From: a virus
Length of the DNA stretch: 27,929 nucleotides
Virus record (IMG/VR): IMGVR_UViG_3300003690_000096
Location: 1-27,929 of that record
Direction: 5' to 3' (one strand)
Under the pieces are notes generated by a model. That model made no database searches and was not told the DNA's origin. It saw only the letters and a program-made list of their open reading frames with translations. Shown here piece after piece: positions 11,420 to 27,302 of this stretch. Each line of letters opens with the position of its first letter. Position 1 is the stretch's first letter. The translations under genes and the position numbers were made by a program.

Positions 11420-13273
11420 TTAGTCAATACGCCCACGCATGGAATTGATCGCGGCACGCACCTGCGAACCCACTACCTCGCCGATGGTGTCATTCAACCC
11501 AAGACGCAATGCCGTCATCACGTCTTCCTCGTTAAACTCCCCGATTGTTTCCGCGTCATCGAACTGGAAAAACACCGCGTCGGTTGGAGCCGGGTTCTCA
11601 GCCTGTTCACCGGTCAACGCGTCCAGCTTCGATCCGAGACGGTCGAGTGCGTCCAATACCGGAACCATGACATCATGAACCGGGTCACCAGGAGAGGGAG
11701 AGGGAGCAACCACCACCCCGCCCGGTTCTGACTCGGTTGCCATTGCCGATACGGTAACGAGTGCGACAGCCTCGTCCTCGAAACCAAAATCGTCAAGTAG
11801 ATGTGCAAGGTGATCCGATGTCAAACTGCCCTCGATCTTCGCCATCAGCTTGGCGCGCGCTTTACAGTACGCAGACCACCCGGCTCCATCTCGCTCCCAC
11901 GGCGCTTCGCGGTCGAACTGCCGGTAGTGGCTTGCGAGATGCCGCTTCACCGCGCCGACATCCGCGCTCGGGAGTTGGGTTGCATCCAGAAATGCCGCCG
12001 CTGATGCCACCCCACGCCACACCACATCACCGCTGGCTTTGTGGTGGGGCAATTTCATTTCGCCGAAGTTCTCAGGCTCACGTGATTCGGCCCAGGCGAA
12101 ATGCGTGGCGATGGCTCGGCGTTCGGCAGCGGACAGATCACCCCAAGTGTCAGATGTGAAATCTCCAAGGGTCGGCTTCTCCCACGCCTCACTCACCGGC
12201 GCTTCGCCGAAGCCGCTTGGATTCGGTGGCGTGACACCCTTCGAGATCGCGTCATCGTCCACGCTCTTGTTGTCCCCATTCACAGCGGTGTACTGGAACG
12301 TGTTCTGGAATTCGTCCACGTTCCTGATCGTCTCTTTCACCGCGACCTTGATGTCATTCATCGCCTTCCGAATGACATCCAGAAAATCATCAAGCTGATC
12401 CCTGACTGGTTGCTTGGCGACCGGCTCGGTTGCCGGTTTGATCACAGACTCGTCGGGTGGACCGCTGACGGGCTTCTCAGGCACGCTCACGTCGTCCGTA
12501 AGCGCACCGAACCCGGCCAGGGTGTCCTTGGCCCACTTGGTGATCAACTCCACGTCAGCGGCCTTCACGCCAGCCGACATCAGCGCGCCGGGATTCGCTG
12601 GAACCGGCACCACGCTGAACTCAAGCAATTCCTGCTTCTCGAAGTCCACGCCACCGCGCTCCTCGTTGAACTCGTAGGTCAACGGTCTGAACCCGACAGA
12701 TGCCCCACGCAGGAATCCCTGCTTCAGCATCTGGTACACCTGCTCGGCTACGGGATTCAATCCGGCGTCAGCGAACTGCGCCTCGGCGACCAGCGTGTCA
12801 CCCACTTGCGTCAAGCTCGTTGTGCGCGCCACCGGCAGCGAATCGTAATCGTGCGCGAACAGCACCACCGGATTCTTGAGGTAGTTGGTTGTGTCCCATC
12901 CGCTCGCGTTGATCACGTCCTTCTCACGGTCAGCCGATCCGGTCGTGATGACGAACTTGATCGTGCGATCTTCACCGGGCTGGATCTCGGTCACGAACTC
13001 CTTGCGGAGCAACACATCAGTCGGCGCTTGGCCGGTTGCCACGAACGAGGTACGCCAATCGTCTAGAGGAAACAAGCCGGGTTCCTTCTCGCTCATCCCA
13101 TCCTCCCGGTACTCACAGAATCCCTGATGCTCATCGGCCATGATTGCAGCCTCGGCACGGCGACACGCACCCAGCGAATCGAACTGACATCTGCCGCGTA
13201 AGCCGTACTTCCATTTCCCATTAGCGCATCGGTAACACGGCATAAAAAAAACGCGCGCACGGCTCATCGCCAT
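11420..13273 (-). CDS. Prohead maturation protease with extra C-terminal domains
   Basis: A 617-residue protein. The HK97/U35-type protease domain spans about residues 85-245: KFVITTGSADREKDVINASG, NPVVLFAHDYDSLPVA with the likely catalytic His141, and FLRGASVGFRP with the likely Ser192. The N-terminus has a Cys cluster (Cys13, Cys16, Cys29, Cys37) that may bind zinc. Residues of about 360-470 form a second conserved-looking domain (ENFGEMKLPHH, VWRGVASAAAF, VKRHLASHYRQF) often attached to phage proteases. The C-terminus is acidic and could act as scaffold. Start choice is open: 13273 is the longest, the family-like N-terminus MPCYRC begins at 13243 right after a T8 tract, and an ATG at 13096 has a strong GGGAGG site. 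At 617 residues it is much longer than a simple protease. Confidence 0.88.
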   Translation of the reverse strand: MAMSRARVFFMPCYRCANGKWKYGLRGRCQFDSLGACRRAEAAIMADEHQGFCEYREDGMSEKEPGLFPLDDWRTSFVATGQAPTDVLLRKEFVTEIQPGEDRTIKFVITTGSADREKDVINASGWDTTNYLKNPVVLFAHDYDSLPVARTTSLTQVGDTLVAEAQFADAGLNPVAEQVYQMLKQGFLRGASVGFRPLTYEFNEERGGVDFEKQELLEFSVVPVPANPGALMSAGVKAADVELITKWAKDTLAGFGALTDDVSVPEKPVSGPPDESVIKPATEPVAKQPVRDQLDDFLDVIRKAMNDIKVAVKETIRNVDEFQNTFQYTAVNGDNKSVDDDAISKGVTPPNPSGFGEAPVSEAWEKPTLGDFTSDTWGDLSAAERRAIATHFAWAESREPENFGEMKLPHHKASGDVVWRGVASAAAFLDATQLPSADVGAVKRHLASHYRQFDREAPWERDGAGWSAYCKARAKLMAKIEGSLTSDHLAHLLDDFGFEDEAVALVTVSAMATESEPGGVVVAPSPSPGDPVHDVMVPVLDALDRLGSKLDALTGEQAENPAPTDAVFFQFDDAETIGEFNEEDVMTALRLGLNDTIGEVVGSQVRAAINSMRGRID

Positions 13274-13338
13274 GCTGCGCGTTCAAAACTCCCGCAGCGG
13301 GAACGTCAGATTGTCGTCAGCCCAGTGCCAACGCTGGG

Positions 13339-13367
13339 ACTATGACGATCAATTAACAACTTGTCAA
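13339..13367 (-). promoter_or_regulatory. Leftward sigma70-like promoter for capsid operon
   Basis: On the minus strand TTGACA (13367-13362) is separated by 17 nt from CATAGT (13344-13339), a perfect -35 with a 4/6 -10 box. Predicted transcription would start near 13332, about 60 nt before the protease start. A C9 tract lies just upstream of the -35 on the plus strand (13368-13376). Confidence 0.55.
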
Positions 13368-13379
13368 CCCCCCCCCATG

Positions 13380-13413
13380 AAAAAAAAGTTTACGCAAGCC
13401 TATGGCCTGCGTA
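13380..13413 (-). terminator. Leftward terminator upstream of capsid promoter
   Basis: On the minus strand TACGCAGGCC-ATA-GGCTTGCGTA forms a 10-bp stem (one G-U pair) at 13413-13391, followed after three bases by TTTTTTTT (13387-13380). It would stop leftward transcripts arriving from the 13.4-14.1 kb region, insulating the capsid operon promoter just downstream. Confidence 0.6.
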
Positions 13414-13442
13414 CAACCAACAACGTACCATCAGCAAAACAT

Positions 13443-13470
13443 CAACCCGTCACAACCCGTCAACCCGTCA
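13443..13470. repeat. Three CAACCCGTCA direct repeats (iteron/operator-like)
   Basis: The decamer CAACCCGTCA occurs exactly at 13443, 13453 and 13461 (the last two overlap by 2 nt), followed by a degenerate GCGCGTCAA. Such close direct repeats are typical of protein-binding arrays. Confidence 0.65.
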
Positions 13471-13659
13471 GCGCGTCAATGGAACCGGGTCGCAATTAAC
13501 GTATGACCAATGCAAATTGACAACGGAATATCCAGACATGTACCAAATAAGGCAGGCCGACCGGAGACACTCCAGGCGGAGAACTTGAGTCTGCGCGTCG
13601 TGTTGTTCTTAAAAATCATACAATTTTCTCTCGCTGGTTTCATTGGTTCAAGTTGGCAA

Positions 13660-13677
13660 ATTGAACCTAGGTTCAAT
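13660..13677. repeat. 18-bp perfect palindrome, operator-like
   Basis: ATTGAACCTAGGTTCAAT is a perfect palindrome centred on CCTAGG. A further half-site GGTTCAA lies at 13645-13651, so three copies of the TTGAACC heptamer sit within 32 bp. This is typical of a repressor operator, though it could also be the first hairpin of the downstream array. Confidence 0.6.
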
Positions 13678-13714
13678 CCCGAACACAACGCTCCTGCGTA
13701 ACCTGCTGGGCATC

Positions 13715-13763
13715 GGTTCCAACTCGGAACGGTATGGGTACCTAAGCACGCCGAGTTGGAACC
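13715..13763. repeat. Inverted repeat, 13-bp arms
   Basis: GGTTCCAACTCGG (13715-13727) and CCGAGTTGGAACC (13751-13763) are exact inverted copies around a 23-nt loop containing GGTACC. No U-tract follows, so it is not a simple terminator. Confidence 0.8.
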
Positions 13764-13790
13764 ACCATCCACACGTACGGGTAACACGGC

Positions 13791-13842
13791 TTCCGTACAA
13801 CCTTTCCTCGCGTACGCGCACAGGGAAAAAGGTTGTACGGAA
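13791..13842. repeat. Inverted repeat, 15-bp arms
   Basis: TTCCGTACAACCTTT (13791-13805) and AAAGGTTGTACGGAA (13828-13842) are exact inverted copies around a 22-nt loop containing CGCGTACGCG. This is the longest stem of the array. Confidence 0.8.
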
Positions 13843-13885
13843 CCCATGCGTCCCGTACACGGTGGCTCCAGGCACGATGAAATGC

Positions 13886-13922
13886 TTTCTGCCCAAACCT
13901 CAACCCCATAGGTGGGCAGAAA
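13886..13922. repeat. Inverted repeat, 10-bp arms
   Basis: TTTCTGCCCA (13886-13895) and TGGGCAGAAA (13913-13922) pair exactly around a 17-nt loop. Confidence 0.75.
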
Positions 13923-13960
13923 CAGAAACCCGGCACCCCGACGACACTCCTGCGTAGGAC

Positions 13961-13989
13961 GTTGAGCGTGTGCAGGGCAACCGCTCAAC
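13961..13989. repeat. Inverted repeat, 8-bp arms
   Basis: GTTGAGCG (13961-13968) and CGCTCAAC (13982-13989) pair exactly. This is the last stem of the array. A direct repeat CTCCTGCGTA (13691-13700 and 13947-13956) brackets the stems between 13715 and 13922. Confidence 0.65.
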
Positions 13990-14062
13990 TGTCGGACGCA
14001 GCACGCAGCGCCATCTCGATCTTGGCCGCAACTTGCTTGTGTCCAACCTGGACATCAAAACA

Positions 14063-14117
14063 CCCAATGAATACGGGGTTAAAATAATCTTATTTATTTT
14101 ACGAATATTCTTGACAT
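14063..14117 (+). repeat. 55-bp direct repeat, left copy (promoter UP region)
   Basis: This block matches 22281-22335 without gaps at 50 of 55 positions (differences at 14068, 14078, 14079, 14101 and 14109). It consists of GAATACGGG, an AT-rich run (AAAATAATCTTATTTATTTT) and GAATAT, and ends in the -35 box TTGACAT. The AT-rich part sits where an UP element would. The two copies flank the plus-strand accessory operon. Confidence 0.85.
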
Positions 14118-14139
14118 CAGTGTATGTAGGACGTAATAT
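14111..14139 (+). promoter_or_regulatory. Promoter P1 of rightward operon
   Basis: TTGACA (14111-14116), 17-nt spacer, TAATAT (14134-14139). The spacer holds the octamer TGTAGGAC (14125-14132) shared with three other promoters in this window. An AT-rich UP-like element lies upstream. Transcription would start near 14146. Confidence 0.8.
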
Positions 14140-14193
14140 ACATGCATGACACGGGCACTGAAGACGGCACGGCGCAACCAGGAGACGAACTAA

Positions 14194-14313
14194 ATGGCTA
14201 TCGTATTTATGGCAATCGGCGAGTTGGTTCTTGGTTTGGGATTTGTGGTTGCATCGTTGGCGCTTCCGGCCTTCTTGCTAAAGGCGGCTGTTCCGTTTTT
14301 GATGGGCCGATAA
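14194..14313 (+). CDS. 39-residue hydrophobic membrane peptide
   Basis: ATG at 14194 follows a GGAGA ribosome binding site (14181-14185) and encodes a 39-residue peptide beginning MAIVFMAIGELVLGLGFVV. Residues of about 3-35 are almost entirely hydrophobic, interrupted by Glu10 and Lys30, so a single membrane span is likely. It is the first gene after promoter P1 and is followed by promoter P2. Choosing this frame over an overlapping one that begins at 14142 rests on the ribosome binding site and the coherent membrane-protein composition. A role as a small inner-membrane effector is possible, but no family is recognised. Confidence 0.6.
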   Translation: MAIVFMAIGELVLGLGFVVASLALPAFLLKAAVPFLMGR

Positions 14314-14323
14314 CACTACCTGC

Positions 14324-14351
14324 TTGACATCGCGTCCTACATTATGATAAT
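14324..14351 (+). promoter_or_regulatory. Promoter P2 of accessory operon
   Basis: TTGACA (14324-14329), 16-nt spacer, GATAAT (14346-14351). The spacer holds GTCCTACA (14334-14341), the reverse complement of the TGTAGGAC octamer. The predicted start near 14358 leaves only about 9 nt before the first ATG at 14367. Confidence 0.7.
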
Positions 14352-14366
14352 ACTTTAATTCATAAA

Positions 14367-14621
14367 ATGCTGAACAGCCCGAACGCCAACGTCAACCGGT
14401 GGAGCAACGGGTTCGTCCTCTACGCGACACATTCCGATGGACGGGCTGCGTACATCCGCGAGTACCGCGCGCCCGGTTGGGACACGCGTCGGCGGACGGT
14501 CTACCAGACGAAGCTATCCACGGACACCCATCCGTGGCCGAATCCTCGTCACCCGCGCGCCATCGGCGTGACCAAAAAGAACGGATGGATCGTGGAGAAC
14601 AATAATGCCAAATCTGCGTGA
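14367..14621 (+). CDS. Hypothetical protein, first gene of accessory operon
   Basis: An 84-residue protein beginning MLNSPNANVNRWSNGFVLYA, rich in Arg, Asn, Thr and aromatic residues, with a YIREYRAPGWDTRRRTVY segment. It starts about 9 nt after the predicted P2 transcription start with no ribosome binding site, so initiation would be near-leaderless. It overlaps the following acetyltransferase gene by 17 nt. The composition suggests a small beta-rich basic protein. No family was recognised. Confidence 0.6.
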   Translation: MLNSPNANVNRWSNGFVLYATHSDGRAAYIREYRAPGWDTRRRTVYQTKLSTDTHPWPNPRHPRAIGVTKKNGWIVENNNAKSA

Positions 14622-15072
14622 AGCCACGATGGGCGACATGGCGATGATGTTTGACTGGTGCAACGATCCAGGGATGCGAAAATATTCGCACAACTCTAGT
14701 CCGGTGCCTTGGCTCGATCATGAAAAGTGGTACGTCGCCAAGATGGACGAGAACCCGAAGCGTGTCTGGATCGCGTGCGAGGATGATCACGCGATTGGGT
14801 ACGGGCGCGCCGACGCCAAGGTCAACTACCGCGCACTTGTCAGCGTGGGACTAGACGAGGTGTGGCGTGGTCTGGGTGTGGGGACATGGCTAATCCGGCA
14901 AGTCACCGACCGACTGGTGGCCCAAGGACTCACGCCTGTAGCTCACATCTATCCGGCGAACAGCGCGTCGATCCACGCGTTCGTTGCCGCCGGGTATGTG
15001 CATCACGGATTGATTGGAGACAAGTACCATGAGTACAGATACGCATCAGACGATGCACGAGTACTGGGCTAA
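14605..15072 (+). CDS. GNAT-family N-acetyltransferase
   Basis: A 155-residue protein with the GNAT layout: N-terminal REATMGDMAMMFDW helix, the central beta strands VWIACEDDHAIGYGRAD, and the acetyl-CoA binding loop RGLGVG (residues 88-93, R/Q-x-x-G-x-G pattern). A C-terminal NSASIHAFVAAGYV segment (119-132) is typical of the last helix and strand. The N-terminal half (RKYSHNSSPVPWLDHEKWY) resembles acetyltransferases of amino-sugar pathways such as PseH-like enzymes, which fits the neighbouring cytidylyltransferase and aminotransferase genes. The likely reaction is acetyl transfer from acetyl-CoA to an amine, possibly on a sugar nucleotide; the substrate is unproven. Confidence 0.88.
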   Translation: MPNLREATMGDMAMMFDWCNDPGMRKYSHNSSPVPWLDHEKWYVAKMDENPKRVWIACEDDHAIGYGRADAKVNYRALVSVGLDEVWRGLGVGTWLIRQVTDRLVAQGLTPVAHIYPANSASIHAFVAAGYVHHGLIGDKYHEYRYASDDARVLG

Positions 15073-15202
15073 GGAGTTCACTCGACGCGCAGACCTGAAG
15101 CGCACCTTGCCCGATCCCAAGGCCGAGGCGTACTGGCGCGCGCGAGCCGAGCGAGAGATGAGGTGGAATGATGGTGCATCTACAAAAAGAATGGGAGGGT
15201 GA
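15029..15202 (+). CDS. Small hypothetical protein
   Basis: A 57-residue charged protein starting at ATG 15029 with GGAGA (15016-15020) upstream. It overlaps the end of the acetyltransferase gene by 44 nt and the next gene by 35 nt. It is helical and rich in Arg, Lys and Glu, with Trp residues (HEYWAKEFTRRADLKRTL and AYWRARAEREMRW). A slightly longer start exists at 15014. The Trp/Arg repeat pattern H/A-Y-W-x-x resembles part of the hypothetical protein encoded at 16181 (KYWNDMADKLARDG), which may point to a shared small helical module. No function is recognised. Confidence 0.6.
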   Translation: MSTDTHQTMHEYWAKEFTRRADLKRTLPDPKAEAYWRARAEREMRWNDGASTKRMGG

Positions 15203-16178
15203 GCGCAGACCGTTTCACGCTGTTCAGCGTGAGCAACTTGTTCTTGGGCACTGGGACGAATACGTTGACAGCCATCCTGATGGGTGGTGGTTTCATCGAT
15301 CCGAATGGTTGGCGTATTCACTGGAGTATTCCCCTGGTTCCATCGACCGGTCGGTGGCATTGGTGGATACGGGGTACGGGAACGTCATTGGGATCTGTCC
15401 TGCCATTTCCGAGAACGGCTGGATATCAATGGGCGGGGAACCGTGTGCTGGGCCATTGCTGAATGCGGCTGTAGATTACGCGGACGCGCTGGACAGTTTC
15501 ACCGAATACGGATTATTCAAAGATGGCAAAGTTGCATGGCGCTGGCCCGATAGATTATTGAATAATAACGTGACGGGGGACGGCTTCGCGCGTGTTCTCA
15601 GCAACGCTCCAGACTGGTTCGTTGGAGATTGGTCAACCGTTGTGGTGGACCTAGAGAAGCCCCAGGACACGCTCTGGCACGACTTGAGGAAAAGCTACCG
15701 CTCCACGATTAAAGCGGCTCACTGGACGTGTGAGGCAGTCACAGGGGGCATCGAGCGATGGGACGAATATGAAGCGTGTCACAAGGCGGCTGCGAAACGA
15801 CCGCGCTCCCAGGCTACCTACAACCACATGCGCGACTGGGTGAAGTCAGGACACGGGCGGATCGCGGTGGTGCTGGATCAGAATCAGGCGTGTGTCGCCG
15901 CGACGTTGGCGCTGACCTACAAGAATCACGCGTACTACGCAAGCGGTCCATCGGTGGTGCGCGGAATGCAGCACGCGTGTCAATGGGCCATGATCAAGGA
16001 CTTACAGGATCAAGGGATGCGGTGGTACGAAATCGGCTGGACTGGACAGCCCGGTGCCAACGCGAACATCGAGTTCTTCAAGCGTGGGTTCGGTGGAGAT
16101 ATGCGTGGTATTATCGTGGCGATGTTCAGACCCGACCTCCCTGTTCAGGGGGATGAGCCTTCAGTAATGGATTACTGA
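15168..16178 (+). CDS. BioF2/FemAB-like GNAT acyltransferase
   Basis: A 336-residue protein of the two-lobed GNAT_6/BioF2-like (FemAB-related) type. The N-terminal lobe has HWDEYVDSHPDGWWFHRSEW. The C-terminal lobe includes LRKSYRSTIKAA, RIAVVLDQNQACVAATLAL, YYASGPSVVRGMQHACQWAM and the end signature YEIGWTGQPGANANIEFFKR followed by GFGG. That ending matches the typical pattern in which an Asn-x-x-x-x-FK-x-x-FG segment closes the acyl-CoA fold. Such enzymes transfer acyl or aminoacyl groups to sugars, peptides or polysaccharides. ATG codons at 15168 and 15171 both fit; a GAGGTGG site lies upstream. It is the second acyltransferase in the operon. Confidence 0.82.
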   Translation: MMVHLQKEWEGERRPFHAVQREQLVLGHWDEYVDSHPDGWWFHRSEWLAYSLEYSPGSIDRSVALVDTGYGNVIGICPAISENGWISMGGEPCAGPLLNAAVDYADALDSFTEYGLFKDGKVAWRWPDRLLNNNVTGDGFARVLSNAPDWFVGDWSTVVVDLEKPQDTLWHDLRKSYRSTIKAAHWTCEAVTGGIERWDEYEACHKAAAKRPRSQATYNHMRDWVKSGHGRIAVVLDQNQACVAATLALTYKNHAYYASGPSVVRGMQHACQWAMIKDLQDQGMRWYEIGWTGQPGANANIEFFKRGFGGDMRGIIVAMFRPDLPVQGDEPSVMDY

Positions 16179-16180
16179 CG

Positions 16181-16660
16181 ATGCGTATTGATTCCGTACG
16201 ATATCCCAACGTCTTTCCCCGCACCGTCAAGAAGAAGCCGGGTGAATGGGCCGGACGGTACCAGGAATGGCGCGCGCGCGTCCCCTGGTCAGATAGTGAA
16301 ATCATTTACGCGATGCGACGGCTAGCCGAGACTCACCCGGCACCGCACGTCAAGAAGTACTGGAACGACATGGCGGACAAGCTAGCAAGAGATGGCCGCT
16401 TGAGCGGGAAGGTTCTCAGCGGCGTGTTACCTGATCTGGTGCTGCTCTGCGATGAGTGCGGGAAGAAGGCGTTGTACCGCGTGGGGTTCAAGGGGTATTG
16501 CCGAGAACACAAACGCACGGATACCAGTGGGCGACAGGACCGGCTGAATGCGTGGTCTATCCTGAAAGCCAACGCCTACTATGAACATGATCGCCGAATA
16601 ACAAAAAGGCAAAACCATCACCTCGCGCGCGGACTACGGAGAACAGGCCCACGTGACTAA
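16181..16660 (+). CDS. Zinc-finger-like hypothetical protein
   Basis: A 159-residue basic protein starting 2 nt after the previous gene. The second half has CDECGKKALYRVGFKGYCREH, with Cys90, Cys93, Cys107 and His110 in a C-x2-C-x13-C-x2-H pattern that probably binds zinc. The N-terminal half is helical with Trp/Arg-rich segments (GRYQEWRARVPWSDSE and KYWNDMADKLARDG). The C-terminus is Arg/His-rich. It overlaps the cytidylyltransferase start by 8 nt. It could be a nucleic-acid-binding accessory protein; no named family was recognised. Confidence 0.7.
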   Translation: MRIDSVRYPNVFPRTVKKKPGEWAGRYQEWRARVPWSDSEIIYAMRRLAETHPAPHVKKYWNDMADKLARDGRLSGKVLSGVLPDLVLLCDECGKKALYRVGFKGYCREHKRTDTSGRQDRLNAWSILKANAYYEHDRRITKRQNHHLARGLRRTGPRD

Positions 16661-17393
16661 GCGTGTGGTGGTCATCGTGCAGGCGCGCCTTGGAAGTGAT
16701 CGGCTTCCGCGCAAGGTACTGGCCGACATCACCGGCAAGCCGATGATCGCGCATGTCATCGAGCGCGCCAGTGCGATACGCGGCGTGACCTGTGTGATCG
16801 GCGCGGTTCCGACCGACGACACTGACCTGATCGATGTGCTGCGTGATCTGTACGTGGATACCGTCATGGGGTCTGAGGATGACGTGTTGTCCCGGTTCGT
16901 GTTGGGTGCAACTCTGCATCAGGCTGACATCGTCTTGCGTGTCACGGGCGACTGTCCGCTGTTGGCACCCGAGGCGGGTGATGAAGTGGTTGATCGGATC
17001 TCAGGCGAGTGGCCTGACCTGGAGTATTGCAGCAATGACACGCTCGTGTCGGGGTGGCCGGATGGTACCGATGTGGAGGGGTTTACGCGTGGGCTGCTCG
17101 ACCGATCACAGGGCGTGAGTCTGACTGCTTATGATCGTGAGCATGTGACGCCGTGGATGCGACGGAACGCTGCGCGGGTGTCCACTGTGGATTGGACTGC
17201 TGACCCGCGTGACACGTTCGCTGCTGGTGTAGCGTCCTTGAAGTTGAGCGTGGATACCGCTGACGACTTGCAGCAAGTGCGCGACATCCACGGGAACCTC
17301 ATGGACCTTGGAGGCTCCGGTTCGTTTTCGTTGCCTGCGACTGTCGCTGCTGCGTCTCTCACACAGAACGGCTCGTTGATTTGCGCGCCATGA
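16653..17393 (+). CDS. SpsF-like CTP-dependent sugar cytidylyltransferase
   Basis: A 246-residue protein starting at GTG 16653. The N-terminal signature VQARLGSDRLPRKVL (residues 9-23) is the nucleotide-binding loop of the CTP_transf_3 (SpsF/NeuA/KdsB) superfamily. RVTGDCPLL (96-104) provides the metal-binding Asp, and WPDGTDVEGF (135-144) and YDREHVTPW (160-168) are SpsF-subfamily hallmarks. KLSVDTADDL near the C-terminus completes the fold. The family activates sugar acids or other sugars as CMP conjugates for spore-coat, capsular or O-antigen glycans. It overlaps the aminotransferase start by 4 nt (ATGA), a pairing frequent in bacterial glycan loci. The sugar substrate is unknown. Confidence 0.9.
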   Translation: MTKRVVVIVQARLGSDRLPRKVLADITGKPMIAHVIERASAIRGVTCVIGAVPTDDTDLIDVLRDLYVDTVMGSEDDVLSRFVLGATLHQADIVLRVTGDCPLLAPEAGDEVVDRISGEWPDLEYCSNDTLVSGWPDGTDVEGFTRGLLDRSQGVSLTAYDREHVTPWMRRNAARVSTVDWTADPRDTFAAGVASLKLSVDTADDLQQVRDIHGNLMDLGGSGSFSLPATVAAASLTQNGSLICAP

Positions 17394-18673
17394 CCAAGGC
17401 ACTTCGGCGCAGCCCACTCGGTGCGTTCAGTCTGCGAGAGGTGGTGTCCGACGAGGATCTGTACAAGCGCGCCATCGAGGTGACGCCGAAGGGCACACAG
17501 ACGTTCAGCCGAATGCGCGGGGCGGTTGGCACGTCCGAGTATCCGATCTTCGCCGAGAGCGCGGACGGCGCATATCTCCAGTGTCGTGACGGCACCAGAT
17601 ACATCGATCTCGCTGGTGCTAACGCGTCGGCCCCTCTGGGCTTCAACGATGAGGCTGTCTGCGAAGCGGTGTGGGAACACGTTGGGACAGGTGGCACCTT
17701 GTCGCTCCCGACCGAGCTTGAGGTGGAAACGTCTGAGGCGTTGGTGGCGGCGGTGCCTGCCGCTGAACAGGTGCGGTGGGTTCGCACCGGCAGCGAGGCT
17801 GTCAGCGCGGCGGTGCTGACAGCGCGACAAGCCACCGGGCGACATGCTGTCCTAGCCATCACTGGGAACTACCACGGGTGGCATCCCTGGACGCGTGACG
17901 ACCGGTCAATCTATCGGGTGTCTCCGTGGGTGGAGAACCTGGATGGTGTGTCGATACTGATGACTGGCGCGCAACTCGAATCCGGCCCATTCACCGGAGA
18001 CGCCACGGACATGCGACAGGTCGCGGCGGTGATCGTGGAACCACCCAGGATGGAACCCATCACCCCGGCGTATCGAGCGTGGTTGCAAACGGTTCGTGAT
18101 CAGTGTTCAAGTTTCGGGACGCTGCTCGTCTATGACGACGTGGTGTTCGCCTTCCGGTTCGTCACTGGAGGGTTGCAGCAAGCGACGGACATCTATCCAG
18201 ACATCGCATGTTTCTCGAAAGCGTTGGGGAATGGTGTGCCGGTTGGATGTATCGCAGGCACGCGCGCGGTCATGAGCGGCACGCCTGTGAGTTCCACGTT
18301 CGGAGGTGAGACGGTCGGACTGGCTGCGGCACAGGCGGTGCTGGCTATTCATGCCGAGCGGGACGTATGCGCGGAACTGCATGAGGTTGGCACTCTACTG
18401 CGCGCGACGCTGGAGAAGGCGCTGGACGGCACCCCGATAGAAGTGTATGGGACGCCCGTGCATTTCCGATTTCAAGTGAAGCAGCAGGTCGATGAGGAAG
18501 AGAGGCCGGACATCATGGATGCGTTCCTGAACGGGTGCCTGGAGAAGAACGTCCTGGTGCATCGCAGCGCGAACAACGCATCCTTGGCGATGACCAAAGC
18601 CGTCCGAGCTAAGATTGGGTTCGCGGTCGAGGCGGCAGCGCATGGCTTGGATTGGGGGGGGAATGGCGAATAA
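17390..18673 (+). CDS. GSA-type PLP aminotransferase/aminomutase-like enzyme
   Basis: A 427-residue class III PLP enzyme of the glutamate-1-semialdehyde 2,1-aminomutase-like family. Visible motifs are DGTRYIDLAGANASAPLGF (substrate-proximal region), RTGSEAVSAAV (132-142), NYHGWHPW, EPPRMEPI, LLVYDDVVFAFR (Asp249 for the pyridine nitrogen), FSKALGNG with the Schiff-base Lys277, and STFGGE. The canonical D-E-V-x-x-G-F-R is altered to D-D-V-V-F-A-F-R here. Next to an SpsF-like gene it more likely aminates a sugar or keto precursor than makes haem. ATG 17390 is chosen because it gives the ATGA overlap; an upstream TTG at 17381 is possible. Confidence 0.9.
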   Translation: MTKALRRSPLGAFSLREVVSDEDLYKRAIEVTPKGTQTFSRMRGAVGTSEYPIFAESADGAYLQCRDGTRYIDLAGANASAPLGFNDEAVCEAVWEHVGTGGTLSLPTELEVETSEALVAAVPAAEQVRWVRTGSEAVSAAVLTARQATGRHAVLAITGNYHGWHPWTRDDRSIYRVSPWVENLDGVSILMTGAQLESGPFTGDATDMRQVAAVIVEPPRMEPITPAYRAWLQTVRDQCSSFGTLLVYDDVVFAFRFVTGGLQQATDIYPDIACFSKALGNGVPVGCIAGTRAVMSGTPVSSTFGGETVGLAAAQAVLAIHAERDVCAELHEVGTLLRATLEKALDGTPIEVYGTPVHFRFQVKQQVDEEERPDIMDAFLNGCLEKNVLVHRSANNASLAMTKAVRAKIGFAVEAAAHGLDWGGNGE

Positions 18674-19292
18674 GAAAACCGAGTTGGCCGAACTGGAAAA
18701 ACTGGTAAGTCTGAAACCTGACACGGTCAACGCGAACACCGGCACGGTGCGTGGCACGGCGATGCTGGAGCGATCCCTTCAAGATTATGGGGCTGGGCGT
18801 TCTATCCTGGTGGACAAGCACAAGAACGTCATTGCGGGAAACAAGACCCTGGAAGCAGCGGTTGGGATTGGGGTTGAGGACGCCCTTGTGGTGCATACCA
18901 CCGGGGAACAACTGGTGGTCGTCGTGCGCGATGACCTTGATCTCAACACAGACGCGCGCGCGCGGGAACTAGCAGTTGCCGACAATCGGGTGAGCGAAGT
19001 CAACCTGACGTGGGCGGTGGACATGCTGCAAAAGATCGAGGGTCAGGGCGCAATGTTAGACAAGTTCTTCACGCCCAAGGAAACAGAGATCCTCCTGCAA
19101 CAATCCCTCGCGTTTGTACCTGAGACGAACCCAGAGTTCTCCAACAAGGAAGTCACTGACGGCGAGATCAGTAGCGTGAAGGACCGCCTTGGTTCTAAGT
19201 TTTCGGACGTAGCTAGCGAGTCGGCGCGCGCGGGGCGCGAGGTGGTATGTCCTGGGTGCGGGAAGGCGTTCGTTGTGTCAGGTGGAGACTGA
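18663..19292 (+). CDS. ParB/sulfiredoxin-fold protein with C-terminal CxxC
   Basis: A 209-residue protein starting at ATG 18663 after a G9 tract that acts as ribosome binding site. It overlaps the aminotransferase by 11 nt. The N-terminal half (ANTGTVRGTAMLERSLQDYG, then AGRSILVDKHKNVIAGNKTLEAA) is the ParB-like nuclease/Srx fold seen in phage proteins that accompany methyltransferases. LAVADNRVSEVNLTW is another hallmark. The C-terminus ends in CPGCGKAFVVSGGD, a single C-x2-C knuckle that would need a partner to bind zinc. These phage ParB-like proteins are not partition proteins; they may use nucleotides or nick DNA. Confidence 0.85.
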   Translation: MANKKTELAELEKLVSLKPDTVNANTGTVRGTAMLERSLQDYGAGRSILVDKHKNVIAGNKTLEAAVGIGVEDALVVHTTGEQLVVVVRDDLDLNTDARARELAVADNRVSEVNLTWAVDMLQKIEGQGAMLDKFFTPKETEILLQQSLAFVPETNPEFSNKEVTDGEISSVKDRLGSKFSDVASESARAGREVVCPGCGKAFVVSGGD

Positions 19293-20159
19293 GTGACTTT
19301 TGAATCCCTGGATCGATTCGCGTCCTTGATGCGGGAGTTGCCGTTCAAGTTCGTGAAGTCGATGCCGCGTTCACCGCACTTCTACACCCTGCGGAAGTGG
19401 TTGCCAGACGGTTCGGTGTTCGACTGGTGCGTGGAGTTTATCAAGACCGAAGGGCACACCGAGCAGTTCATGAACCTGCCCTACACGAAGGTGCATGTGA
19501 ACGGGCATCACTACTGGGTCACTGACTCGCTGTACGAGGATGGTTCTGTCCTGATCAATCGAGCCTTGGCTAATTACCACACGGATTTTTGTGCGTTGGC
19601 CGAGCGGTATGACACGCTCTTCTGTGATCGCACCAGCCTGGATGAGAACACGACCGTGATGGAAAGCATCCGTGGTGAGAATCAGCATGAGGATGTGCGC
19701 GAGTTTGGTGGCGTACGTGACCAGCGGGTTCTTGACATTGGCGCAGGGACTGGTTTGCTCTTGGATTATTTCGGGTCCGAGATCGCGGTGGAAGACTACG
19801 TCGCCGTGGAGCCATCCAAGCCGATGGGGAAACAGTTCTGCATCAAGCATCCGTTGTATGTGGGGTGTCTGATTCCGACCATGTTTGAGAACTTCGCGCA
19901 TGGCAAGTTCGATCTCGTGGTGTCCACTTTTGGGGCGATCAGCTACGTGCGCCCAGAGTACGTGTCCCGCGTGGTGGAGATGCTGAATCCTGGTGGCCGG
20001 TATTTCCTGATGTTCTACCTGGAGGGATACGATCCCGTGTCATGCGTGACGACCGGCATGGCGTCTCACCATTTCACTGGTGGGGAGCAGCGCCTGCTTG
20101 ATGGCGGCGACTGTCGCACATACAGCAATTTCATGATCTGCGAAGGCAGCATCCCGTGA
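19293..20159 (+). CDS. Class I SAM-dependent methyltransferase with N-terminal accessory domain
   Basis: A 288-residue protein starting at GTG 19293, immediately after the previous stop, with a GGTGGAG ribosome binding site. Residues of about 20-125 form a domain (KSMPRSPHFYTLRKWLPDGS, HHYWVTDSLYEDGSVLINRA) of a kind I recall beside IbrA/IbrB-like genes. The methyltransferase core follows: motif I RVLDIGAGTGLLL (145-157), AVEPSKPM as the acidic motif II, FDLVVSTFGAISYV as motif IV, and LNPGGRYFLMFYLEGYD as the motif V region. No DPPY-type or PCQ-type DNA methylase motif is visible, so the target could be a small molecule, RNA or modified base. Confidence 0.82.
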   Translation: MTFESLDRFASLMRELPFKFVKSMPRSPHFYTLRKWLPDGSVFDWCVEFIKTEGHTEQFMNLPYTKVHVNGHHYWVTDSLYEDGSVLINRALANYHTDFCALAERYDTLFCDRTSLDENTTVMESIRGENQHEDVREFGGVRDQRVLDIGAGTGLLLDYFGSEIAVEDYVAVEPSKPMGKQFCIKHPLYVGCLIPTMFENFAHGKFDLVVSTFGAISYVRPEYVSRVVEMLNPGGRYFLMFYLEGYDPVSCVTTGMASHHFTGGEQRLLDGGDCRTYSNFMICEGSIP

Positions 20160-21301
20160 AAATCTTCCTTGAACACAACGTGTACGAAGGCGCACTGGCG
20201 CGGATTCGATATCTGTTTAACGAGTTCGAGAATCTGTATGTGAACTTCTCTGGAGGGAAAGACAGCACGGTGCTGTTGAACTTGACGATCCAGGTCGCCA
20301 CGGAGATGGGGCGTCTTCCGGTCAAGGCGATGTTCCTCGACCAAGAGTGCGAGTGGGAATGTGTGATCGAGTTCATGCGTCGCACCGCGAAACGTGACGA
20401 GGTGGAGTTCAGTTGGTTGCAGGTTCCCACCAATATGTTCAACGCCAGTTCTGAGATCATGGCGTGGAATCGAGCCTGGGAAGAAGATGCCGAAGACAAG
20501 TGGGTGCGCCCAAAGGAACCGGACTCCATCCATGAAAATGTCTACAAGGAGTACCGCTTCGACGATCTATTTGAAGGGCATCGGCGGTATCACCATCCGA
20601 ACGAACCCTGCGTGTCGCTGGCCGGTGTGCGCGTCGAGGAAAGCCCAGCCAGGAAGATGGGGCTGACTTCCTATCCCACGTACAAGCATCTGACGTGGGG
20701 CGCGAAAAAGGATGTGAAGCGCGGACACTACGTGATGTATCCGCTGTACGACTGGTCATACACGGACATCTGGAAAGCAATCCATGACGGCGGCTGGGAC
20801 TATTGCCGGTTGTACGATCTGGAATACAAGTACGGGCAGAACGCGCGCGACATGCGCGTGTCCAATGTGCATCATGAGACGGCCCTTCAGAACGTCATGT
20901 TCTTGCAGGAGTTTGAACCCAAGACCTTCAACCGGATCACGAAACGTCTGTCGGGGTTGCACGCCGCTGCGACTATCGGGATGCGGTACATCCGGCCACC
21001 GCGTGAGTTGCCGTTCATGTTCAGTGACTGGCGCGAGTATCGAGATCACTTGCTGCACAATTTAATTCAGGACGAAGACATTCGTGAACGGATGCGAACA
21101 CAATTTGAAAAACACGATCACATCTTCGATGAAGAAATCCATGACGAGTTGCGGAAAAAACAAATCGCCTGCATCTTGAGCAACGACTATCACGGCAGCG
21201 CGATGAATACGTTCAGGGCGGGACACGGGAAATACTTGAAGGCGGGGAAGTTCGCGGGTGGGAAGTTCAAGGGTGGCAAGCTGCGGAGCAAACATGCCTG
21301 A
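20156..21301 (+). CDS. ibrA: IbrA-like PAPS-reductase-family (PP-loop) protein
   Basis: A 381-residue protein starting at GTG 20156 with a 4-nt overlap. NFSGGKDSTVLLNL has the PP-loop SGGKDS (residues 32-37) that binds and cleaves ATP to adenylate. The following MFLDQECEWECVIEFMR and the C-terminal VSNVHHETALQNVMFLQEFEPKTFNRI match the DUF3440 IbrA-type branch of the PAPS reductase family. The family also resembles DndC, which works in DNA phosphorothioation, but true PAPS-reductase catalytic Cys motifs were not recognised. The C-terminus is Gly/Lys-rich (GKFAGGKFKGGKLRSKHA). It is paired with an IbrB-like gene 0.26 kb downstream. The gene symbol is by resemblance. Confidence 0.85.
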   Translation: MKIFLEHNVYEGALARIRYLFNEFENLYVNFSGGKDSTVLLNLTIQVATEMGRLPVKAMFLDQECEWECVIEFMRRTAKRDEVEFSWLQVPTNMFNASSEIMAWNRAWEEDAEDKWVRPKEPDSIHENVYKEYRFDDLFEGHRRYHHPNEPCVSLAGVRVEESPARKMGLTSYPTYKHLTWGAKKDVKRGHYVMYPLYDWSYTDIWKAIHDGGWDYCRLYDLEYKYGQNARDMRVSNVHHETALQNVMFLQEFEPKTFNRITKRLSGLHAAATIGMRYIRPPRELPFMFSDWREYRDHLLHNLIQDEDIRERMRTQFEKHDHIFDEEIHDELRKKQIACILSNDYHGSAMNTFRAGHGKYLKAGKFAGGKFKGGKLRSKHA

Positions 21302-21566
21302 CGGAATTTTGCTTGCGGACGGATTAGGGGAGGCGTTGATCGGCCTGGGCCGTCGTTGTGGTCAGCCGGACGTGGCGGTCTACTCCATCCCGAAAGCCAT
21401 CGCGCTGCTCGTACGTCGTGACGAGATGAGCGAGGACGACGCGCGGGAGTATCTGGAGGTCAACAGCATCGGCGCGTGGGTGGGTCCGGCGACGCCGATC
21501 TGGGTGGAAGCGATGACGCTGGATGAGATACACGCCTACGCAGACAAGGAGTGGCGCGAGCGATGA
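21294..21566 (+). CDS. Small conserved protein between ibrA- and ibrB-like genes
   Basis: A 90-residue acidic protein starting at ATG 21294, overlapping the IbrA-like gene by 8 nt. The pattern LLADGLGEALIGLGRRCGQP, then VAVYSIPKAIALLVRR, then DEMSEDDAREYLEVNSIGAW and VGPATPIWVEAM resembles small proteins of unknown function seen in many phage genomes. It is probably an alpha/beta protein. The ATG is preferred over the longer upstream start at 21258, which would lie deep in the previous gene. It may assist the IbrA/IbrB-like pair; this is inferred only from position. Confidence 0.8.
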   Translation: MPDGILLADGLGEALIGLGRRCGQPDVAVYSIPKAIALLVRRDEMSEDDAREYLEVNSIGAWVGPATPIWVEAMTLDEIHAYADKEWRER

Positions 21567-22258
21567 AAATGGAGTTCATCCAATTCCAAGATGCCCTGGA
21601 GAAAATCGAGGAAGCCTTTGAACGTATTGATGATGATGAGTTTAGAATTGACGCGCTGAACTTTCTTCAAAGTCAGATCCGTAATCTCACGCCGCTCCAC
21701 GATCAACCCGTGAGTGGTGTGATGTGGGTGCCGCTTGAAAAAGTGGAAGCCAATGACTACAACCCCAACACGGTCGGCGCGCGCGAGATGCAACTGCTTC
21801 AGGTGTCCATCGATCACGATGGGTACACGCAGCCGGTGGTGACGATCCACGATGAGGAACGGGACGTGTATGTGATCGTGGACGGGTTCCATCGGTACTT
21901 CGTGATGAAGTCATACGAGGCACTCCGCACACGGACGCACGGCAGGTTGCCGGTGGTGGTGATTGACAAGTCCATCAATGATCGCATGGCGTCAACCATT
22001 CGGCATAACCGCGCGCGTGGCAAGCATTCGATAGATGGCATGTCCAGGTTGGTGTTCAAGATGCTCGACAACGGATGGGCTGACGCAGCGATCTGCAACG
22101 AACTCGGGATGGAAGCGGAAGAATTGATCCGACTGAAACACATCACCGGATTCTCCAAGCTGTTTGCGAACGTGGAGTACCGCAAGGCGTGGGTGGCACG
22201 TACCCAGATCAAACTGGCACACGACGCCGGTGTGAAGAATGTAGATTTCTTGCCGTAA
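21563..22258 (+). CDS. ibrB: IbrB-like ParB/Srx-fold protein
   Basis: A 231-residue protein starting at ATG 21563 in an ATGA overlap (alternative GTG at 21551). After a helical acidic N-terminus, the core reads DQPVSGVMWVPLEKVEANDY, then NPNTVGAREMQLLQVSI, YTQPVVTI, IVDGFHRYFVMKS and RMASTIRHNRARGKHSID. These are signatures of the IbrB/ParB-like family, with VDGFHR (106-111) in the nucleotide-binding loop. The C-terminal helical part (LGMEAEELIRLKHITGFS) is a helix-turn-helix-like spacer. IbrB works with IbrA in enterobacteria as a regulator of immunoglobulin-binding protein expression. In phages the role of the pair is not known. It is the last gene of the operon. Confidence 0.88.
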   Translation: MKMEFIQFQDALEKIEEAFERIDDDEFRIDALNFLQSQIRNLTPLHDQPVSGVMWVPLEKVEANDYNPNTVGAREMQLLQVSIDHDGYTQPVVTIHDEERDVYVIVDGFHRYFVMKSYEALRTRTHGRLPVVVIDKSINDRMASTIRHNRARGKHSIDGMSRLVFKMLDNGWADAAICNELGMEAEELIRLKHITGFSKLFANVEYRKAWVARTQIKLAHDAGVKNVDFLP

Positions 22259-22280
22259 AGTCTCGGCGCGCGCCAAAAAC

Positions 22281-22335
22281 CCCAACGAATACGGGCCTAA
22301 AATAATCTTATTTATTTTGCGAATATCCTTGACAT
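22281..22335 (+). repeat. 55-bp direct repeat, right copy
   Basis: Matches 14063-14117 at 50 of 55 positions with no gaps. Like the left copy it ends in a TTGACAT -35 box. The 8218-bp spacing exactly brackets the accessory operon. Confidence 0.85.
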
Positions 22336-22357
22336 TGTAGGACGCTGGACGTACAAT
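22329..22357 (+). promoter_or_regulatory. Promoter P3
   Basis: TTGACA (22329-22334), 17-nt spacer, TACAAT (22352-22357). The spacer begins with TTGTAGGACG, holding TGTAGGAC at 22336-22343, and has a second GGAC further on (CTGGACG). The AT-rich UP-like run precedes it. It drives the small gene at 22394. Confidence 0.8.
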
Positions 22358-22393: not shown

Positions 22394-22609
22394 ATGCTAA
22401 CCATGACACAGACGATGACCCGCGACGAAGCAGAGCATTTCTACACGTGGCTGGAGAACACGGTGGACATGGAAGATCAGCATGAGATCGAGCAACGCGT
22501 CCATCAGTTGATGCGCGCGAAGGGATTCCTGCGTGGGCTGGATTTATCGCGAGCGATCAAGGTTGCACACGACGAGTTGCGCTACACACTTTTACTGAGA
22601 GGGCGCTAG
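22394..22609 (+). CDS. Small hypothetical acidic/helical protein
   Basis: A 71-residue protein starting at ATG 22394 with a GAGGAG ribosome binding site, about 30 nt after the predicted P3 transcription start. It is helical with EHFYTWLENTVDMEDQHEIE and a C-terminal basic part (RAIKVAHDELRYTLLLRGR). It is the only gene between P3 and the convergent leftward block and is probably expressed early or strongly. Its stop codon overlaps the stop of the opposing gene. No family was recognised; it could be a small regulator or host-takeover protein. Confidence 0.7.
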   Translation: MLTMTQTMTRDEAEHFYTWLENTVDMEDQHEIEQRVHQLMRAKGFLRGLDLSRAIKVAHDELRYTLLLRGR

Positions 22610-22836
22610 GTGCGACGGTAGCCGCCTGCGTCAATACTGGAGAACACGCCGCGCACGGTGCCGGTGCCGGGATCGAACTTGACCGTGATCTGCACACCGC
22701 GCAAATCAGGCAAGCTGTCGAGGACAGCAGACCGCAGGTGCAACTCGTTCACAACCGCGCGCGCGATCAGATGCGAGGTGGTTGCCGTAGGCGTTGGCAC
22801 AGGTTCGGAGTCAAGCCCGCAAGATCGGAGATTCAT
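22606..22836 (-). CDS. Small hypothetical protein, last gene of the right-hand leftward block
   Basis: A 76-residue protein with an ATGA overlap to the upstream Rossmann-like gene, so translational coupling is likely. The C-terminal half (SLPDLRGVQITVKFDPGTGT) looks beta-rich. It ends tail-to-tail with the plus-strand gene at 22394-22609, with the two stop codons overlapping. No family is recognised. There is no intergenic terminator at this convergent junction, so transcripts from both sides would read into each other. Confidence 0.65.
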   Translation of the reverse strand: MNLRSCGLDSEPVPTPTATTSHLIARAVVNELHLRSAVLDSLPDLRGVQITVKFDPGTGTVRGVFSSIDAGGYRRT

Positions 22837-23438
22837 TCCGCGACTACGCGACCGATCAGGGAACCCACGTAATCCTTCACCACGTTGGCTTCGGACCAGT
22901 AGTCAAAACCGTACCGCGCCCAATGTGACGCCACGTGATCACCATGCGGGATGGTGACCGTCATCCCGCGCCCCTCAACGTAGCCCAGCCACCACTCCAC
23001 GCAGGCGCGCTCGACCGTCGCTTCGCGTTGGGTGCCGTAGACAAGTTCCAACCCATGCACCGCGATCTCGTCAAAGCCTTCGTCAAGCGCCAGCGCAATT
23101 TGGTACGCGAAGGTACAAGAAAAATAATCACGGTAGCGTTCCGCTAACTCGTCCACCGGAAACACCACCGCCTGCGGATTTTCTGGGAACGGCTCCGTCG
23201 TGTAGATCGGCAACGGACACTCACGCAACCAGATCATGTCCTGCGGATCTTGGATGTCTGTCGTCGGCGGGTGGAGTTCAAACCACCGGTCAGCGCGCAG
23301 CCGGTCCTGGGAATCGCGCATGGCGTTCCAGAAATTGTTGATGCCCCAAATCTCCCACGCCTCGTCGTCCCACGGCAACAACCTCAGTGACTTCCCAGCC
23401 CCACAGATTGCCACCTTCCTGCGACGTGGTGACGCCAT
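22833..23438 (-). CDS. Phage Rossmann-like protein (DUF115/Maf-like core), short form
   Basis: A 201-residue protein paralogous to the one at 8333-9280. The shared pattern is KVAI-x-G-x, then a WDDEAWEIWGINNFW segment, then a YFSCTFAYQIALALDEGFDE stretch and IAVHGLELVYGTQREA. The longer protein reads VWTLNQIY, YFTSTVAFEVGLAMLEGF and IALFGIDLIVGTEYS at these places. It lacks the extended C-terminal helices. ATG 23438 is chosen because GGGGGAAAGG precedes it; the frame is also open to a GTG at 23513, which would overlap the previous gene. Fold suggests nucleotide or sugar-nucleotide binding; activity is unknown. Confidence 0.75.
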   Translation of the reverse strand: MASPRRRKVAICGAGKSLRLLPWDDEAWEIWGINNFWNAMRDSQDRLRADRWFELHPPTTDIQDPQDMIWLRECPLPIYTTEPFPENPQAVVFPVDELAERYRDYFSCTFAYQIALALDEGFDEIAVHGLELVYGTQREATVERACVEWWLGYVEGRGMTVTIPHGDHVASHWARYGFDYWSEANVVKDYVGSLIGRVVAE

Positions 23439-23505
23439 GCAGACCTTTCCCCCTCGGATGGACGCGCGCGCGTTGTGAGGGCTGAGGACGAACGGGCGAA
23501 CCGGT

Positions 23506-23859
23506 TTACTCACTGGCGTGTTTCGCCTGGATGTCAGCGACGACAGCGCCGAGTTTGGCGTGAGCGTTTCGCAACGCTACTTCCAGATCGATGATTGACC
23601 CCACCGCTTCGGCCACCATCGGATTGGAAACTAAATCCTTGGCTGTGGCATCCTCGGCGACGACAAGGAGATTGCCAACGAGGTCTATCGCACGTTGGCG
23701 TTTCGCGGCACCGTGTCTGTTCAGCACGAAGTTCTCCACGATGACCACGGACGAGGATACCGCTTTGAGAATCGCAGCCACTGGACCGCCAACCAGCGGC
23801 ACGATGATCGGCGAGATGCTCGTCAACAAACCGGCAACTGCTCCCCAACTGATGCCCAT
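23506..23859 (-). CDS. Membrane-associated hypothetical protein (holin-like candidate)
   Basis: A 117-residue protein starting at ATG 23859 with GGGGAG upstream. The N-terminal about 45 residues (AVAGLLTSISPIIVPLVGGP, then VAAILKAVSSSVVIVENFVL) form one or two hydrophobic segments. The rest is helical and soluble (NLLVVAEDATAKDLV, then DLEVALRNAHAKLGAVVADI). The frame is open further upstream to 23988, but that region covers the preceding gene and lacks a ribosome binding site. Together with the membrane protein just upstream it resembles a phage lysis pair, though no endolysin is present nearby. Confidence 0.65.
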   Translation of the reverse strand: MGISWGAVAGLLTSISPIIVPLVGGPVAAILKAVSSSVVIVENFVLNRHGAAKRQRAIDLVGNLLVVAEDATAKDLVSNPMVAEAVGSIIDLEVALRNAHAKLGAVVADIQAKHASE

Positions 23860-26855: not shown

Positions 26856-26884
26856 TTGACATTGTAGGACATGTCTGATACGAT
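26856..26884 (+). promoter_or_regulatory. Promoter P4
   Basis: TTGACA (26856-26861), 17-nt spacer, TACGAT (26879-26884). TGTAGGAC occupies 26863-26870, at the same distance from the -35 as in P3. An A-rich run (AAAAAAATAAAG) lies upstream. It is divergent from the portal gene and directs a small plus-strand gene. Confidence 0.7.
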
Positions 26885-26953
26885 CCTCACATGGTCAACG
26901 GCGAAGACAATGCAGACGCGGCAATTCAGCCGCCAGTGACGCTGGAGGGCGTT

Positions 26954-27163: not shown

Positions 27164-27302
27164 AGTATGCCGTAATCAACACAGTGGCCGACCGCGAGAT
27201 GGTCACATGCCGTAGCTGGACCCCGCGCGGGGGGATGCACTGGATGGGCAGGACTCAACCAAGTTCACCTGCCCCTTCGCTAAACTTTCGCCCCCGACCG
27301 AC

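Follow-up and report, generated by a model that had tools for sequence, protein, structure and literature searches.

What is the function of a phage operon that joins sugar-activating enzymes to IbrA/IbrB-type genes and is read against the virion genes around it? We considered this question for IMG/VR virus record IMGVR_UViG_3300003690_000096, of which the full 27,929 bases (the window) were analysed. The source phage is of siphovirus type, its capsid of the HK97 kind, and the record, about half as long as those of its relatives, is probably a genome fragment. Virion genes on the - strand, for tape measure protein, tail, adaptor, major capsid protein (MCP) and protease, lie to the left of the operon and the portal gene lies to its right; between them, 12 open reading frames (ORFs) on the + strand tile positions 14367-22258. 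An earlier note on this DNA had read the operon as a CMP-sugar half and a half of nucleic-acid-modification type that together carry out one modification. Both characterizations held, whereas the single joint modification did not, and the putative CMP-sugar users proved to be paralogues in the head module rather than operon genes. On balance we consider it probable that the phage makes a sugar acid for glycosylation of its virion, and that the genes for this are fused in one accessory block with a separate DNA-modification module.

A probable truncated nonulosonate cassette

The first half of the operon contains the following ORFs.

14367-14621, + strand: g1, the first operon ORF (84 aa); no tblastn match in the retrieved loci
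14605-15072, + strand: GNAT N-acyltransferase (PF00583 5e-12; TIGR03585 2.4e-6)
15029-15202, + strand: 57-aa ORF, the 12th gene; no relatives in the retrieved loci
15168-16178, + strand: FemAB/BioF2-like acyltransferase (TIGR04421 7e-10 and PF13480 0.0025, both below cut-off)
16181-16660, + strand: g5, a window-specific ORF of 159 aa between FemAB and SpsF; no family and no relatives in the retrieved loci
16653-17393, + strand: SpsF-like CMP-sugar synthetase, a cytidylyltransferase (CTP_transf_3 PF02348 1.9e-24; conserved N-terminal motif QARLGSDRLPRK)
17390-18673, + strand: class III, glutamate-1-semialdehyde type (GSA), pyridoxal phosphate (PLP) aminotransferase (Aminotran_3 PF00202 2.5e-39; PLP-lysine motif SKALGNG)

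A CMP-sugar synthetase, an aminotransferase and an N-acyltransferase, as sought in a nonulosonate cassette, are present in the window. PseH is among the best NCBIfam models for the GNAT protein, below cut-off, and this gene holds an orthologous position in L002-L006 (related loci are given L or G numbers). The domain calls made earlier mostly hold by Pfam, PHROG and NCBIfam; the BioF2/FemAB-like call is weak in the models and is backed by consistent homologues in related cassettes, where the gene adjoins SpsF (L002-L006, L053, L057, L062 and L105).

Scanning viral contigs with SpsF revealed the gene order dehydratase - Gfo/Idh oxidoreductase - NeuB - GNAT - FemAB - SpsF - GSA, the first three genes of which match PF02719 (7e-72), PF01408 and PF03102 (1.6e-34). 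Such complete cassettes are carried by G001-G003 (46-51 kb), where dehydratase, oxidoreductase and NeuB precede the four genes shared with the window. The MCP, its neighbour, the adaptor and the two putative glycosyltransferases GT1 and GT2 (see below) of these contigs are 74-92% identical to those of the window, and the portal and protease 53-56%. In a set of 82 SpsF-bearing loci, drawn from viral contigs (some with more than one locus) and one contig of a metagenome-assembled genome (MAG), SpsF was accompanied by NeuB in 57, by the dehydratase in 58, by GNAT in 56 and by GSA in 44. A scan with GSA as query found no relatives, which reflected the limits of that scan, as later profile searches gave 53 loci. 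Among 50,697 isolated phage records, none encodes a protein related to the L002 NeuB at E 1e-8.

The CMP-sugar character of this half is supported by the relatives, which hold a complete version with NeuB and dehydratase, and judged from its genes half 1 is best read as a truncated (back-half) cassette for a nonulosonate, with a sialic-acid-like compound as the predicted product. The missing front steps may sit on the missing part of the record, since split layouts exist: in L147 SpsF-GSA lies apart from GT-NeuB, and L099 has dehydratase-NeuB-GNAT-FemAB without SpsF nearby.

Putative CMP-sugar transferases in the head module

The likely users of the CMP-sugar are predicted to be two proteins encoded in the head module, outside the operon.

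22833-23513, - strand: GT2, GT42/DUF115-like, between the portal and protease genes; predicted CMP-sugar user (PDB profile search, AlphaFold (AF2), Foldseek, co-occurrence)
8333-9280, - strand: GT1, paralogue of GT2, between 9472-10092 and the adaptor gene (alignment, AF2, Foldseek)

GT1 and GT2 have no Pfam or PHROG match, and none of the 48 members of their family matches Pfam GT42 (CST-I) or DUF115. When the 48-member alignment was compared with PDB sequences, however, the nine best matches were all GT42 CMP-sialic-acid transferases (E 0.005-0.08), with the similarity running through two collinear motifs in the vicinity of the CMP-binding region. The invariant Asn59 of the family aligns with the Asn of the FRCNQ motif of CstII, which we take to be the CMP-binding Asn. 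The nine best PDB matches in Foldseek were likewise all GT42, both for the AF2 model of GT2 (predicted local distance difference test score, pLDDT, 90.5; E 4.9e-5 to 1.9e-3) and for that of GT1 (pLDDT 86.0; E 1.3e-3 to 3.1e-2). These matches had probabilities of 0.97-1.0, and the next-best folds were weaker in both E-value and probability.

Near its C-terminus GT1 has two long helices that form a hairpin (residues 223-306). GT2 has no such hairpin, which might serve GT1 in docking to the head as it assembles. Of the 50,697 isolated phage records, 1 contains a relative of GT (29.5% identity), and that phage lacks NeuB and SpsF.

Co-occurrence of transferases and sugar pathway

GT similarity alone retrieved 14 contigs with a length of 30 kb or more, close pairs among them, and every one encodes both NeuB and CTP_transf_3. 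Of 23 long contigs with SpsF that do not belong to the window lineage, at least 13 encode a GT relative, or 14 with one that reached only E 7.6e-5; the 23 were chosen from a list rather than exhaustively, and some had already been seen to carry GT. As an unrelated control set we used 23 viral contigs (32-108 kb) from the TTGACATTGTAGGAC scan described below, picked solely by a chance 15-mer, and the same profiles that scored in the positive sets detected GT or NeuB in 0/23 of these. An exact test of seven lineages against this control gave ~5e-7. In L057, L062 and L169 the GT gene lies inside the sugar cluster itself. This association gives the GT1/GT2 family a concrete, testable activity.

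Virion or host surface as the target

Across dozens of contigs the GT genes hold their places among the head genes. The rate of evolution of GT1 (79-93% identical) is about as low as that of the capsid gene (MCP 82-97%), and the cassette enzymes evolve fast (SpsF 49-65%, GNAT 33-62%). One virion protein stands out next to GT1.

9472-10092, - strand: MCP-neighbour protein, adjoining GT1; 90-100% conserved, 24% Ser/Thr

Among the virion-module proteins compared it is both the most conserved and the most Ser/Thr-rich, and our guess is that it could be the glycan acceptor. Virion glycosylation by phage-encoded transferases has been described for Che8, Corndog and Myrna (excerpts of PMC12363180, citing Freeman et al. 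2023).

The main rival is that the cassette decorates the host envelope, for superinfection exclusion or receptor change, and not the virion, with GT1 and GT2 acting on a host glycan or being vestigial. Host-surface decoration keeps this rank because phage enzymes that alter a nonulosonate-containing host capsule are known in Acinetobacter (excerpts of PMC12053666 and PMC6586298). Moreover, the structurally characterised GT42 enzymes have glycans as their substrates, and the operon has its own promoters and is transcribed opposite to the late genes. We nevertheless regard this explanation as rather unlikely, given that GT1 and GT2 lie within the head gene order and match the capsid protein in conservation (GT1 79-83%, MCP 82-84%), and that we recognised in the cassettes no gene for a flippase, a polymerase or export.

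Inverted placement and promoters with a shared motif

In relatives the block lies upstream of the terminase gene on the capsid strand, while in the window it is inverted and located between GT2-m22606 and the protease gene. L030 has the same GT2-m22606 junction with a gap of only ~680 bp to the protease gene, and in L099 the GT2-protease slot holds dehydratase-NeuB-GNAT-FemAB, at the position that the block has in the window. Four promoters were recognised around the block and near the portal gene.

14056-14135, + strand: left copy of an 80-bp repeat with promoter P1 (TTGACA at 14111, TGTAGGAC in the spacer)
14324-14351, + strand: operon promoter P2 (TTGACA-16-GATAAT; the inverse of the motif, GTCCTACA, in the spacer)
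22274-22353, + strand: right copy of the 80-bp repeat with promoter P3 (TTGACA at 22329, -10 box ending at 22357), ahead of the 71-aa ORF 22394-22609
26856-26885, + strand: promoter-like P4 (TTGACATTGTAGGAC...), ahead of ORF 26891-27163 and beside the start of the portal gene

The two repeat copies are direct, 81% identical and bracket the operon, each with a promoter, and constitute a possible route for exchange of the block by recombination. With both orientations counted, the window has exactly four copies of the 8-bp motif TGTAGGAC (14125, 14334, 22336 and 26863), a number reached in 0/100 shuffles, and all four sites lie in spacers of + strand sigma-70-like promoters (14111, 14324, 22329 and 26856). 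By its placement the motif looks like an operator common to four + strand transcription units, from which we infer a shared regulator; the units with this promoter type besides the operon are 14142-14327, 22394-22609 and 26891-27163. The latter two ORFs (71 and 90 aa) stand directly behind their promoters and have no PHROG match. Paralogy between them was not supported, as their local alignment score was reached by 18 of 500 shuffles. The attempt to find the rest of the phage through the promoter motif failed as well, since scanning with TTGACATTGTAGGAC yielded 76 single matches, by our own estimate about the chance number for 15 bases in a contig collection of such a size, and no second regulon.

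The inversion relative to close relatives, together with the lower identity of the block proteins (33-54%, against 74-92% for most capsid-region genes), could also arise from a chimeric assembly in which the operon belongs to another phage. We consider this very improbable. A chimera would need two false joins, and it is made less likely by the motif, which occurs in promoters of the block and, adjoining the portal gene, in the backbone (four sites, none elsewhere). Cassette genes also diverge faster among the relatives themselves (SpsF 56-65% versus MCP 86-97%), L030 shows the GT2-m22606 junction with a short gap, and L099 shows that the slot accepts cassette genes.

A separate module in the DNA-modification slot of relatives

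The second half of the operon comprises five genes.

18663-19292, + strand: ParB/Srx-fold protein (phrog_620 8e-17, phrog_498 2e-14)
19293-20159, + strand: class I S-adenosylmethionine (SAM) methyltransferase (PF08242 5e-7; DIGAGTG motif)
20156-21301, + strand: IbrA-like PP-loop protein of the PAPS-reductase family (phrog_2302 9e-77; PAPS_reduct PF01507 1.5e-17; SGGKDS PP-loop)
21258-21566, + strand: g11, small protein between IbrA and IbrB (phrog_13182 7e-20)
21551-22258, + strand: IbrB-like ParB-family protein (phrog_2159 1e-69)

The IbrA/IbrB pair (phrog_2302 and phrog_2159) is present as a tandem split by a single small gene, and IbrB is 62-63% identical over ~180 aa to its relatives in L007 and L009. 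In the IbrA-linked proteins of these two loci the N-terminal domain is common with the window's methyltransferase (tblastn). The ParB protein has relatives in the ParB portion of phage ParB-DNA-methyltransferases, and a homologue occupies the same slot in L002, L003, L053, L103, L110 and L114.

This slot, between sugar cassette and terminase gene, holds different modules in different relatives: ParB and a C5-methylase in L002 and L103, a PP-loop protein with a C5-methylase and a methyltransferase in L004-L006, a ParB-N6/N4-methylase fusion in L110, and ParB with an ATPase-like protein in L036. In L003 (12874-15974), L106 (7108-11555) and L114 (13174-17060) it contains a DpdA-type tRNA-guanine transglycosylase (phrog_887) with QueC/D/E, and by their genes these three phages likely perform 7-deazaguanine DNA modification; in L106 the Que stretch also carries FolE and phosphoribosyltransferase genes. 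The slot genes are of the DNA-modification kind wherever their function is recognisable, and in the window and L105 it is ParB-IbrA-IbrB that is found there; QueC, QueD and QueE are absent from the window. Since the slot of the relatives holds DNA-modification genes, such as DNA methylases or DpdA/Que, half 2 is by analogy most likely a separate, swappable module that modifies phage nucleic acid, and the position thus supports the type of module proposed earlier. As far as we know this is the first argument from position for nucleic acid modification by the IbrA/IbrB pair, which is widespread in phages. A phosphorothioation system of the Dnd or BREX type 4 kind was ruled out by the tested models, with IbrA showing only weak similarity to DndC/BrxP (E ~1e-5) and the other scanned operon proteins matching no Dnd or BREX model.

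The two halves are not confined to one phage, as the divergent phage L105/L074 also carries both. That they act jointly, with an acylated amino sugar attached to phage DNA and ParB/IbrA/IbrB steering or activating, would fit the continuous operon, the company of both halves in the window and L105, and the annotated glucosyltransferase, methyltransferase and N-acyltransferase genes that precede an IbrA relative in Microbacterium phage Hendrix, but is highly improbable and was rejected as the main reading because each half recurs without the other: L007 and L009 keep MTase-IbrA-IbrB (L009 also ParB) with no sugar cassette in the retrieved DNA, relatives of IbrA are encoded in ~205 records of isolated phages, and half 1 is paired with at least three other downstream modules (C5-methyltransferase, N6/N4-methyltransferase or Que). 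In addition, the genes for the putative CMP-sugar transferases belong to the head module. In the Hendrix run (L179, 91602-97757), which the IbrA relative ends, only IbrA matches a window protein.

Proposed function of the block

For virion glycosylation combined with a separate DNA-modification module, the following course of events can be proposed. Together with the acyltransferases GNAT and FemAB, the aminotransferase of GSA type would shape an amino sugar (sialic-, pseudaminic- or legionaminic-like), the 4,6-dehydratase, oxidoreductase and NeuB steps being supplied from the missing part of the record or by the host, and the SpsF-like enzyme would activate this sugar with CTP. GT1 and GT2 would then use the CMP-sugar to glycosylate a virion protein during assembly. 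ParB-MTase-IbrA-g11-IbrB would replace the DNA-methylase or 7-deazaguanine module of the relatives and probably modify phage nucleic acid against host nucleases. The whole block would have moved, inverted, into the GT2-protease gap, where it would be read from its own promoters.

Several points weigh against this proposal. NeuB, dehydratase and Gfo/Idh oxidoreductase are absent from the 27.9-kb window (tblastn), which alone encodes no complete pathway. The similarity of the GT proteins to GT42 is remote (TM score ~0.4, root mean square deviation mostly 6-8 A, 10-16% identity) and an equivalent of the catalytic His of CstII was not located in GT1 or GT2, so that we call the modelled proteins GT42-like and do not claim them as GT42 proper; because of this remoteness the donor could be another nucleotide sugar. 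The 14 GT contigs amount to about seven lineages and not to fourteen independent cases. The acceptor could possibly be the host envelope or a tail protein, and slot equivalence is circumstantial support for DNA modification by IbrA/IbrB.

More broadly, we tentatively suggest, at somewhat less than even confidence, that uncultured tailed phages of a broad range synthesise CMP-nonulosonic acid themselves and that the GT42-like pair in the head gene order coats their capsids with sialic-acid-like sugars. Virions would then bear a negatively charged, sialic-acid-like surface, with possible effects on adsorption, aggregation, resistance to proteases or host defence, and recognition by animal immunity. 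The parts are of known kinds, and the result of interest is that, across phages, nonulosonate synthesis is coupled to a GT42-like family encoded among the head genes; a description of phage nonulosonate synthesis linked to head-gene transferases was not found in the open-licence PMC literature, for which one query was poorly targeted.

Other features of the record

ORF tiling, codon-position GC and the - strand flanks confirmed a rightward 12-gene operon between leftward virion modules. Its neighbouring genes overlap or abut as tightly as had been described, the largest gap being 2 nt (16178/16181), and with the likelier ATG starts (GSA 17390, ParB 18663, g11 21294, IbrB 21563) several junctions become overlaps of 4-11 nt. 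The 12th ORF (15029-15202) is easily missed in a size-filtered list. The operon ORFs are considered coding because their GC content at codon position 3 (0.64-0.78) and position 2 (mostly 0.33-0.55) is like that of the virion genes. Three of the latter are given here.

24445-26796, - strand: portal gene, complete
11420-13273, - strand: protease gene
10139-11401, - strand: MCP gene

No terminase gene was found in the record, although the portal gene is complete. The - strand ORFs 5864-6187 and 6132-6506 match the second and first half, respectively, of the 241-aa major tail protein family phrog_9522; in relatives the halves are two separate adjacent genes, whereas the second gene of the window is in a different frame from the first, which it overlaps, and lacks the start of the relatives. 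About 870 bp at 13274-14141 have no coding signal and contain an imperfect 31-nt inverted repeat (13775-13858) without Rfam match. The record end (27164-27929) has no clear coding signal and short repeated stretches, and no convincing RNA elements or tRNAs were found in the window.

Megablast detected no near-identical isolated phages, and among the matches listed the closest MCP relatives of isolated phages are 34-45% identical. Naming a host through GT2 in bacterial genomes was abandoned, since the single relative, in an Acidobacteria MAG contig, is too remote (28% identical). Contig JANLHE010000484.1 of Acidobacteria MAG P6-9 (L178) contains relatives of SpsF, ParB, portal, protease, MCP and GT and may be a prophage or a co-binned phage; it is a weak clue to which hosts the window's lineage infects.

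Comparison with known systems

The closest parallel to virion glycosylation is offered by the mycobacteriophages Che8, Corndog and Myrna, whose phage-encoded glycosyltransferases modify capsid and tail proteins (excerpts of PMC12363180). In contrast, the predicted transferases of the window are GT42-like and form a paralogous pair inside the head gene order, and they co-occur with a phage-encoded CMP-nonulosonate-type pathway, for which these excerpts contain no description in those phages. Compared with CstI/CstII of GT42 and with DUF115/MptE-like (Maf-type) proteins, the modelled GT1 and GT2 appear to share the fold and, near the CMP-binding region, two collinear motifs, but differ in their low similarity and the lack of a Pfam match; a catalytic His was not located in them.

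Bacterial Neu/Leg/Pse clusters, some of which have an SpsF-like enzyme in place of NeuA (Vibrio B9-25K2, PMC7371886), share dehydratase, aminotransferase, GNAT, NeuB and SpsF-like CMP transferase with the phage cassettes, and the sugar cluster of L057 also includes an aldo/keto-reductase-type gene. The phage cassettes differ in a GSA-type instead of a PseC-type aminotransferase and in the extra FemAB-like gene, and the window holds only the back half of the pathway.

IbrA/IbrB (a DUF3440 PAPS-reductase-like and a ParB-like protein) are common in phages, and the window shares their phrog_2302/phrog_2159 tandem with phrog_13182 in between; in the window the pair is part of a ParB-MTase-IbrA-g11-IbrB set in the DNA-modification slot of the relatives. 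The phage 7-deazaguanine module (DpdA/QueC/D/E/FolE) takes the same position in L003, L106 and L114, after the sugar cassette and before the terminase gene, where the window and L105 hold IbrA/IbrB instead.

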